Shown one piece after another: positions 9,017 through 24,877 of a stretch of 35,061 bases of DNA. Origin of the DNA: Candidatus Coproplasma avicola (GTDB lineage Bacteria > Bacillota > Clostridia > Christensenellales > Borkfalkiaceae); contig DVHK01000133.1 in the NCBI GenBank assembly GCA_018712135.1, positions 1 to 35,061 of the forward strand, written 5' to 3'. A program made the translations under genes and the position numbers. Below the pieces are notes generated by a model. The model searched no databases and was not told the DNA's origin. It saw nothing but the letters and a program-made list of their open reading frames with translations. Positions within the stretch are counted from its first letter, which is position 1. Each line of letters starts with the position of its first letter.

Positions 9017-9104
9017 CGCACAACATTAAAACCCCGGCTTTCGCCGCGGCTCAAATGGCAGGCGTGCGTCCCCTCACGCCGTCATTATCCGGAATTGCTC
9101 CGTC

Positions 9105-9295
9105 CTGTCCTGCGGGTAGGTCTTCCGACTTAATCCCGAAAAATTGCACGCAAATTATTTTGCGCAAATTGCGGCGGGGTGCGCGCCCTTATATCGCCCC
9201 GACCTTCCCGAAAAATTTCAGTGGAGGGGGCGGGCGGCGCAACGGCAGCGGGGGCTGTGCGGCTATAAACCGACTTCCCTATTAAAGCTTTATTC
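9105..9295 (-). ncRNA. Adenosylcobalamin riboswitch
   Basis: On the minus strand the conserved blocks of the cobalamin aptamer appear in order: AATAGGGAAG (9283-9274), then CACAGCCCCCGCTGCCGT, then CCACTG (9224-9219), then GGGAAGG (9209-9203), then the B12 box AGTCGGAAGACCTACCC (9130-9114). It precedes an attenuator hairpin and the DUF4430/ECF genes. In this class, ligand binding normally represses the downstream uptake genes. Boundaries are approximate. Confidence 0.93.
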
Positions 9296-9401
9296 AAAGC
9301 TGCCCGCAGAACATAAATTATACAATACAGTTTAATATAAAGCGCAGCAAATGTCAACCGCGCGCGGTATTTATTTTTATGCGATGTCAATAAAACAAAA
9401 C

Positions 9402-22606: not shown

Positions 22607-22624
22607 AAGAACAGTTTAATACTA

Positions 22625-22885
22625 TAATGCGATGAAGCGGAATATTAAAATTGTCTTTTGGTTTCAGAGAGCTGCCGCAAGGTGCAAGGCAGCCGAAAAA
22701 GCTTTTCGAACTCGCCGCGGAGCAGATCGGGTGAACTTTAAGTAGCCCGGTACGGTTTCCCGCCGTAAAACGGGCAGGGTGTATATGCACCTGTGAGGCG
22801 GCAGCTTAGTTGCCGTGAAGAAGAGTGGTACCACGCACGGGGCGGCGTCTCTTTAATTTTAAAGAAACGCGCCCCGTTTTTGCAT
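22625..22885 (+). ncRNA. T-box leader, leucine-specific (CUC specifier)
   Basis: A full T-box leader precedes leuA. Visible elements are AGAGAG and GGTGCAAGGC of stem I, a specifier region CGAACTCGCC with CTC at 22711-22713 (a leucine codon), and the T-box GAGTGGTACCACGC (about 22823-22836). The competing terminator ACGGGGCG...CGCCCCGTTTTT lies at 22837-22881. Uncharged tRNA-Leu should stabilise the antiterminator and allow leuA transcription. The specifier call is by position and agrees with the gene. Confidence 0.93.
22837..22882 (+). terminator. T-box-controlled terminator
   Basis: ACGGGGCGGCGTCTCTTT pairs with AAAGAAACGCGCCCCGT, followed by TTTTT. The 5' arm overlaps the end of the T-box sequence, as needed for a terminator/antiterminator switch. 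Confidence 0.88.
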
Positions 22886-22916: not shown

Positions 22917-24575
22917 ATGAACAACTACAAAAAGTACACAAAACAATTCTTCCTTCCCCCCGAGCGCTGCATGGACTGGGCTGAAAAATCCATGATAGAA
23001 AGCGCCCCCGTCTGGTGCTCGGTCGACCTCCGCGACGGCAATCAAAGCCTCGTCGAGCCCATGGATTTGCAGACCAAAATCGAGTTTTTTAAACTGCTCG
23101 TACGTATAGGCTTCAAGGAAATCGAAGTCGGCTTTCCCGCCGCGTCCGAAACGGAGTACGCCTTTATGCGCGCCCTCATCGACGGCGGTCTCATCCCCGA
23201 CGATGTCACCGTTCAAGTGCTCACGCAGGCGCGCGAACACATAATAAAGCGCACTTTCGAGGCAGTAAAGGGCGCAAAAAACGTAATTGTGCACGTGTAC
23301 AATTCAACATCCGTCGCCCAGCGCGAACAGGTTTTCGGCAAAGACAGGCAGGCAATAAAAAAGATTGCCGTCGACGGCGCCCGCCTTTTAAAACAGCTCG
23401 CAGAGCAGGAGGGGGCGCGCTACCGCTTTGAATATTCCCCCGAATCGTTCACGGGCACCGAGCCTGAGTACGCGCTCGAAGTGTGCAACGCCGTCCTCGA
23501 CGTGTGGCAGCCGTCGGCGGAAAGAAAGGCAATAATCAACCTTCCCGCCACGGTAGAAAACGCAATGCCCCACGTCTATGCACAACAGGTGGAGTACATG
23601 AACAAACACCTTAAATACCGCGACGGCGTAGTTTTATCCCTTCACCCCCACAACGACCGCGGCTGCGGAGTTGCGGCGGCGGAAACGGGTCTGCTCGCGG
23701 GCGCGGACAGGATGGAGGGCACGCTCTTCGGCAACGGCGAGCGCACGGGCAACGTCGACATAATAACCCTCGCCATGAACATGTATTCGCAGGGCGTCGA
23801 CCCCGGGCTGGATTTTTCGGATATGCCCGCCATAACCCAAAGCTACAAAATGTACACGGGCATGCCCGTCAGCCCCCGCCAGCCCTACGCGGGCGAGTTG
23901 GTGTTCGCCGCCTTCTCGGGTTCCCACCAGGACGCCATCGCCAAGGGCATGGCTTTCCGCGAGCGCACAAACCGTCAGATTTGGGACGTACCCTATCTGC
24001 CCATCGACCCCAAGGACGTCGGCAGGGAATACGAAAGCGACGTCATCCGCATCAATTCCCAGTCGGGCAAGGGCGGCGTAGGCTACGTCATGCAGACGGC
24101 TTTCGGCATAAACATGCCCCGCGCCATGAAAGAGGACATGGGTTATAAAGTAAAGCACGTCTCCGACGTCACCCACAGCGAGCTTAAACCCGCAGATATA
24201 TACGAAGTATTCAAAAATAATTACCTCCAAAACCGCCCCGTGTTCGACATAACCGAGTGCCATTTCAGGCAAATCGACGGCATAGAGGCGTGCGTTTCTC
24301 TGTCGCACGGCGGCAAGGTGACGCAGGTTATTTCCAAGGGCAATGGCAGGCTCGACGCCGTTTCCAACGCGTTGAAGGCTTATTTCGGCAAAGAATACAC
24401 CCTTTCTTGCTACGAACAGCACGCCCTCACACAGGGGTCGCGCTCCAAGGCGATATCGTACGTCGGCGTGGAGGCAGACGGCAGAATGTTCTTCGGCGCT
24501 GGCGTAGACGACGATATAATCAAGTCGTCATACAAGGCGTTGGTTTCTGCTGTAAACAATATGCTTAAAGCTTAG
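22917..24575 (+). CDS. leuA: 2-isopropylmalate synthase (LeuA type 2)
   Basis: A 552-residue 2-isopropylmalate synthase, the first committed enzyme of leucine synthesis, condensing acetyl-CoA with 2-ketoisovalerate. It is the longer form related to actinobacterial and fungal enzymes: MDWAEKSMIESAPVWCSVDL, the DLRDGNQSLVEPM active-site segment, FPAASETEY, the metal motif HPHNDRG (about residue 242) and GNGERTGN. After the TIM barrel comes the C-terminal LeuA regulatory domain (about residues 430-550), with GKVTQVISKGNGRLDAVSNA and TQGSRSKAISYVGV, so leucine feedback inhibition is likely. It is controlled by the T-box upstream. No leuB/C/D follow. The hairpin array starts one base after the stop. 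Confidence 0.96.
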   Translation: MNNYKKYTKQFFLPPERCMDWAEKSMIESAPVWCSVDLRDGNQSLVEPMDLQTKIEFFKLLVRIGFKEIEVGFPAASETEYAFMRALIDGGLIPDDVTVQVLTQAREHIIKRTFEAVKGAKNVIVHVYNSTSVAQREQVFGKDRQAIKKIAVDGARLLKQLAEQEGARYRFEYSPESFTGTEPEYALEVCNAVLDVWQPSAERKAIINLPATVENAMPHVYAQQVEYMNKHLKYRDGVVLSLHPHNDRGCGVAAAETGLLAGADRMEGTLFGNGERTGNVDIITLAMNMYSQGVDPGLDFSDMPAITQSYKMYTGMPVSPRQPYAGELVFAAFSGSHQDAIAKGMAFRERTNRQIWDVPYLPIDPKDVGREYESDVIRINSQSGKGGVGYVMQTAFGINMPRAMKEDMGYKVKHVSDVTHSELKPADIYEVFKNNYLQNRPVFDITECHFRQIDGIEACVSLSHGGKVTQVISKGNGRLDAVSNALKAYFGKEYTLSCYEQHALTQGSRSKAISYVGVEADGRMFFGAGVDDDIIKSSYKALVSAVNNMLKA

Positions 24576-24576
24576 G

Positions 24577-24827
24577 GTGAAATGCGCGCATAGCGCGCGT
24601 GAAATAGCGGCGTCACCGCTGTGAAATGCGCCAAAAGTCGGGTCAAAATGCCTGCTCTGCCAATGGCGCGAGAAATGCAACCTGTCGGTTGCGTTGAGGC
24701 AGACGATTATTATTTAAAATACTTTTACCATAACGCGCGGTTTAAGACCGCGCATTTCACAAACGCAAAGCGTTTATTTCACTCCGCGGCAGCGGAATTT
24801 CACGTATGGCGCAGCCATACATTTCAC
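24577..24827 (+). repeat. GTGAAAT/ATTTCAC hairpin array (ladder-like palindromic element)
   Basis: GTGAAAT at 24577, 24599 and 24621, a degenerate TCAAAAT at 24643 and GAGAAAT at 24670 form the first half. After a 40-base centre, the reverse complement ATTTCAC occurs at 24754, 24776, 24797 and 24821. Between successive 7-mers sit different short hairpins: GCGCG-CATAG-CGCGC, AGCGG-CGTCA-CCGCT, GCAACC-TGTC-GGTTGC, GCGCGGT-TTAAG-ACCGCGC, AAACGC-AAA-GCGTTT, TCCGC-GGCA-GCGGA and GTATGGC-GCA-GCCATAC. The period is about 22 bp. The 7-mers can pair across the centre, leaving facing side hairpins. It is probably the 3' UTR of leuA or an independent element. Function unknown. Confidence 0.9.
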
Positions 24828-24848
24828 ATATTTTATACTCTTGTGCAT

Positions 24849-24877
24849 TTGACAACGCAGTGGGGTAGTGATATAAT
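24849..24877 (+). promoter_or_regulatory. Consensus sigma-A promoter for lgt
   Basis: Perfect TTGACA (24849-24854), 17-base spacer and perfect TATAAT (24872-24877), 44 bases before the lgt ATG. Confidence 0.9.

Follow-up and report, generated by a model that had tools for sequence, protein, structure and literature searches.

What is the array of short repeated words and palindromes that lies between leuA and lgt in Candidatus Coproplasma avicola, and how did it get there? The array occupies positions 24577–24827 of the window, i.e. the whole 35,061-nucleotide stretch of DNA that was analysed. It starts just after the end of leuA (22917–24575, + strand), a gene that owes its name to the initial annotation, whose ORF was checked, and which lies beside lgt in sister genomes too. 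It stops before the lgt promoter (24849–24877, + strand; boxes TTGACA at about 24849–24854 and TATAAT at about 24872–24877), in line with the placement that this annotation had given. Upstream of leuA, a T-box leader (109.6 bits; 22623–22855, + strand) was present, and a cobalamin riboswitch was found at 9098–9322 (− strand).

The left half of the array has the order GTGAAAT-H1-GTGAAAT-H2-GTGAAAT-H3-(GAGAAAT)-H4. Three exact GTGAAAT linkers (24577–24583, 24599–24605, and 24621–24627; + strand) are followed by hairpin H1 (24584–24598), hairpin H2 (24606–24620), and the large hairpin H3 (24628–24669; GCGCCA...TGGCGC), respectively, and a degenerate linker GAGAAAT (24670–24676, + strand), which reads GTGAAAT in other copies, is followed by hairpin H4 (24677–24692). 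After a 42-nt core (GTTGAGGCAGACGATTATT...TTTTACCATAAC; 24693–24734), the right half has the order H5-ATTTCAC-H6-ATTTCAC-H7-ATTTCAC-H8-ATTTCAC, encompassing the hairpins H5 (24735–24753), H6 (24761–24775), H7 (24783–24796; GNNA loop on the + strand), and H8 (24804–24820; GNA loop on the + strand), each followed by an exact ATTTCAC linker (24754–24760, 24776–24782, 24797–24803, and 24821–24827; − strand). The exact linkers were assigned by word match, the hairpins other than H3 by covariation, and H3, the degenerate linker, and the core by alignment of copies. All four ATTTCAC copies that had been claimed were thus retrieved. Concerning the three exact and two degenerate GTGAAAT copies claimed, the exact ones and GAGAAAT stood, but the other degenerate one, GTCAAAAT near 24643, falls inside H3, where the aligned copies have no linker. 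The linkers are spaced approximately 21–24 bp apart on the same DNA face. A ladder score, counting copies of one 7-mer or its reverse complement that are separated by hairpins, reached 5 for this array. Elsewhere in the window it did not exceed 2, and none of 200 dinucleotide shuffles of the 35 kb gave a value above 1.

The initial annotation knew of no named element with this design, yet the Rfam family Gut-1 (RF01706; Rfam class gene/sRNA) matches both halves, back to back in opposite orientation. The match to the right half (24749–24829, − strand; 50.3 bits) passes the gathering score of 50 bits, and the one to the left half (24575–24653, + strand; 38.6 bits) remains below it. The Gut-1 RNA motif was catalogued in 2010 as a non-cis-regulatory ncRNA found in the human gut only (Weinberg et al. 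2010, PMC2864571). It resembles the present array in that each half matches it, in the same 7-mers between hairpins, and in its gut origin; it differs in being described as a stand-alone ncRNA with a 77-nt model, known from environmental sequence only, whereas in the present case it forms one arm of a dispersed DNA element with two inverted arms. As the motif had already been catalogued, what is new concerns its reinterpretation, its architecture, and its partner. Indeed, no earlier description of ladder ends together with an S23-type protein was found in the open-access literature.

Second instances, for which the initial annotation had proposed a search, were abundant. In the own genome (G000; 1.49 Mb, 134 contigs, 77% complete), a 271-bp query retrieved 40 places by BLAST, and 40 Gut-1 half-array matches were present, often as converging pairs. 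All mapped copies (29 of 29) were intergenic, mostly between co-directional genes and near gene 3' ends, both placements being ORF-based and approximate, and they had no recurrent neighbour gene, apart from translations of other repeats. Since the copies are scattered over many unrelated intergenic locations, a leuA 3' UTR structure, as had been suggested, is wrong as the main explanation; leuA-specific regulation was rejected on the same grounds. A second palindromic repeat (TCATTTCGA...GAGAAATCT...AGATTTCTC...GAAATGACA) was nested in several ladders of this genome (L005, L015, L025, and others), often at the H3 position.

The distribution among relatives was patchy. Of 291 class genomes, 49 contained Gut-1; within the family it was present in 25 out of 61, but absent from all four near-complete genomes of the same genus. 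The number of matches ranged from 0 to about 40 between species of one genus. The subfamily of the window's array was retrieved from 6 out of 398 family genomes. A pattern scan of genome contigs yielded at least 118 stretches, mostly from gut Clostridia, with some chance matches elsewhere. The number and spacing of the ladder units varied, and some hairpins were 42 bp long. The leuA-lgt junction of the nearer relatives G348, G349, and G350 contained no ladder and retained the lgt promoter, whereas that of the sister species G429 and G396 did contain one. The window's copy and its G429 counterpart, of which H2 had decayed, differ in 15 of their 48 stem pairs, ten of which changed on both sides and still pair. 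The G396 copy has a different core and apparently the opposite orientation, indicating that inversion or replacement happens. The dispersal of the copies, their patchy distribution, the lack of an insertion at this junction in nearer relatives, and the sister-species copy that carries a gene (see below) all favour the mobile palindromic element that the initial annotation had listed among its options.

The structure of the hairpins is constrained. When nine copies of the own genome were aligned, 94.7% of the hairpin cells across the eight hairpins were paired, and 34 of 48 stem pairs displayed compensatory changes, a number that none of 500 shuffles came near. The covariation that had been proposed as a check on the side hairpins was therefore found, and it agrees with the earlier statement that they share structure and not sequence, except for H3, whose arms are near-invariant between copies. 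The nested ladder that had been put forward is likewise predicted, with the same fold for both RNA strands and for the + DNA strand (z-scores of −5.4 to −6.6). Cross-pairing between the linkers of the two halves agrees with the finding that the words were mirrored as reverse complements in 39 of 44 ladders linked to a PF05635 gene; it is not proven by it, because a single protein reading inverted sites would give the same pattern, and two copies in G032 (L199, at 17164 and 19553) combine left GTGAAAT arrays with right arrays of a non-complementary linker (CATATCGAG).

Such folds raise the question of whether the ladder functions as RNA, either as the Gut-1 ncRNA or as a 3' UTR involved in mRNA termination or protection, its spread being secondary. 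Its listing as gene/sRNA, the very stable predicted RNA folds, the hairpin covariation, also across species at one site, and the tendency of own-genome copies to follow gene 3' ends closely, as REPs do, would fit this explanation. The loops point in another direction. Among 454 distinct hairpins with loops of 3–4 nt, GNA or GNNA loops occurred 255 times on the outward-reading strand versus 11 times on the other strand. The favoured strand thus differs between the two halves, and therefore no one transcript carries all stable loops. Furthermore, the strand modelled for Gut-1 is the one with TNC or TNNC loops, the bias favouring its complement, and GNRA loops (53) were not preferred over GNYA loops (57), whereas RNA hairpins would favour GNRA loops. 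DNA mini-hairpins with GNA or GNNA loops are extraordinarily stable and nuclease-resistant (PMC4686876). As read from the sequences, the loop bias points to DNA that may become single-stranded or extruded at both ends, and it argues against the modelled Gut-1 strand acting as a ncRNA. Together with the unrelated neighbour genes, the missing leuA-lgt copy in nearer relatives, and an association with PF05635 that it leaves unexplained, this makes a structured RNA unlikely as the primary function. In a deep PF05635 outgroup clade (L262 and L274; ATGTAA linkers and few hairpins), the stable loops lay on the opposite strand.

The association with PF05635 was found both at the genome level and at individual loci. 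Genes of this family (23S-IVP/S23) were present in 41 of 49 Gut-1-positive genomes of the class and in 48 of 242 Gut-1-negative ones (p=2e-17); within the family, these figures were 14 of 25 and 2 of 36, respectively (p=1.4e-5). Several compact ladders were directly followed by a promoter and a gene for a PF05635 protein of approximately 115 aa, the ladder ending where the −35 box of this gene starts. Such compact relatives, which come from Oscillospiraceae among other groups, often lie downstream of a tRNA gene and its terminator. A total of 120 distinct PF05635-type genes whose upstream sequence was long enough were sampled, some of which had been chosen for their GTGAAAT arrays and most of which came from ladder-blind PF05635 searches. 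In the 450 nt upstream, 53 had a ladder score of at least 2 and 44 of at least 3. A score of at least 2 was reached by none of the 2400 shuffles and by 8 out of 119 downstream flanks. In the loci examined, no other recurrent ladder neighbour was found. The linker word varied by group (TGAAAT, GCTAAAT, TGATAT, ATGATGTT, TGAATTG, TGAAGTT, and others), and several linker classes may occur within one genome. It largely tracks the protein tree, on which the ten linker classes required 12–13 changes, compared with a minimum of 9 and a shuffled mean of approximately 32–33; physical linkage of ladder and gene alone could make both trees agree. Several results count against a role of this protein, namely the absence of PF05635 from 8 of the 49 Gut-1-positive genomes and the fact that, to our knowledge, the family has no catalytic domain. 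In addition, no PF05635 gene was found in G000 (77% complete) or G429 (85%). The LxVWQKA-type PF05635 proteins sampled had no ladder.

A gene-bearing copy of the window's subfamily was found in G396, a species of the same genus. This 712-bp copy (L524) lies between two ordinary genes and consists of left linkers (1275–1401), one core half (...GGCAGACGATTATTAT...), a PF05635 gene (1483–1833), the other core half, and right linkers up to 1986, one of which reads AATTCAC. The PF05635 gene is the only one between the arrays. Its product matches PF05635 with an E-value of 5e-27 (94.7 bits; gathering score 33.8), and its predicted structure (pLDDT 93) resembles the S23 protein 2RLD (TM 0.87) and the Avd protein 4DWL (TM 0.80). 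The window's core has the same flanks as that of L524 and lacks the gene; this makes a gene-less derivative the best reading of the window's copy, which, in sequence, looks like a MITE, sharing its ends with a gene-bearing element and missing the interior, with a single gene-bearing example. L524 was the only copy found in this subfamily in which two terminal arrays enclose a gene; elsewhere, the ladder lies upstream of the gene. Its protein belongs to a clade that usually has the linker TGAATT, so that the match between linker and protein is not strict.

Taken together, the array between leuA and lgt probably represents, at a rough probability of 0.68, a mobile DNA element spread by an S23/Avd-like protein, in the form of a non-autonomous, MITE-like copy without the gene. 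The ends of this element are arrays of linker-plus-hairpin units in inverted orientation, and complete members carry one gene, coding for a PF05635 protein of about 115 aa with an Avd fold, which is placed between the arrays in the window's subfamily and, in the compact and commoner subfamilies, with the whole ladder just upstream of its promoter. Movement and its mechanism are inferred: this protein may recognise linkers and hairpins once the outward strand is single-stranded, and may act in cis and in trans, causing the element to spread, gene-less copies included. Catalysis would come from host enzymes or some other partner. More speculatively, such elements might form an unrecognised class of bacterial mobile DNA that moves by way of a single-stranded, hairpin-laddered form, its sole dedicated product being an S23/Avd-like protein that reads a family-specific linker, and with host enzymes doing the chemistry; this wider proposal is tentative and its correctness is somewhat doubtful. 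If it holds, one branch of the S23/IVP family would gain a function, and Gut-1 would have to be read differently. Structures of PF05635/S23 proteins have been solved since 2006–2007 and a role in mobility has been suspected since the 1990s, and we know of no established function. The present results suggest that the family helps previously unrecognised mobile DNA to move and that the Rfam ncRNA Gut-1 is an arm of a mobile DNA element. As one PF05635 clade is tied to a specific DNA architecture, the question of function becomes directly testable, and linker words plus hairpins offer a route to such elements, unrecognised till now in gut genomes.

Alternatively, an ordinary transposase or recombinase could move the array as a MITE, in which case the PF05635 protein would be a passenger or would bind the ladder at its own promoter as a regulator; the ladder end at the −35 box of compact copies is indeed operator-like. 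Similarly, some compact copies (e.g., L282 and L177) interrupt an intrinsic terminator at its loop, leaving a perfect arm on either side; this type of target is known from other mobile elements. Such insertions were found for 13 of 185 flank pairs, some of which were counted on both strands, versus a swapped-flank mean of 2.9 (maximum 7), and are real for some copies and not general. No target-site duplication was recognised at the copies. A 3.3-kb stretch in G032 (L193, 9136–12410), lying between left and right ladder arrays with matching inner ends, was considered as a transposase carrier and rejected, as its interior holds Rhs/YD-type tail ORFs, possibly cargo, without a transposase; a long version with such cargo would also fit the present alternative. 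However, the transposase family screened, Y1, including RAYT, did not co-occur with Gut-1 (p=0.31) and was rejected as a partner, PF05635 is the only recurrent neighbour in the loci examined, and the L524 arrays enclose PF05635 alone, which renders this alternative improbable as well. A static array of sites bound by a protein in nucleoid organisation or partition, as had also been suggested, would suit the strictly conserved word on one DNA face, but is very unlikely in view of the 0 to about 40 matches within one genus, the variable units and 42-bp hairpins, and a loop bias towards single strands.

The preferred reading, a mobile element associated with an S23/Avd-like protein, invites comparison with known systems. 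REP, BIME, and REPIN sequences with their RAYT (PMC3116915, PMC3733652) likewise combine a short tag with an adjacent palindrome, form inverted pairs, and are dispersed over intergenic regions, with gene-less copies next to rarer gene-bearing ones. The ladder element differs in its 7-nt linkers, its 3–5 units per side, its unconserved hairpin sequences, and its partner of another fold, without an associated Y1 transposase; GTGAAAT or a family-specific word takes the place of the GTAG or CGTC tag. The intervening sequences of 23S rRNA genes with an S23 ORF, such as that of Coxiella (PMC4990558), share the protein family, and an earlier suggestion that they are mobile elements encoding a mobility component is attributed in that paper to Ralph and McClelland (1993). 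Ladder copies, in contrast, lie outside rRNA, between protein-coding ORFs, and have ladder ends and a PF05635 protein of another clade. Avd of diversity-generating retroelements (4DWL, 8UB7) appears to share the fold, as modelled, but these elements have a reverse transcriptase as partner, which was rejected here: none was linked to the ladders, and RVT_1 was present in just 6 of 61 family genomes and absent from nearly all ladder-rich ones. The ladder element hence behaves like a REPIN or a MITE and belongs to neither the REP-RAYT systems, the rRNA intervening sequences, nor the diversity-generating retroelements. A PADLOC search gave no match.

Finally, ladders were also encountered in other sources. 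A contig listed as viral (IMGVR_UViG_3300031555_007195; L397 and L474), which may be host DNA, contained tandem ladders and a PF05635 gene that is 79% identical to that of L132. Outside the Clostridia, an Akkermansia MAG (L060) carried a PF05635 gene together with a ladder-like array with ATAACC linkers.
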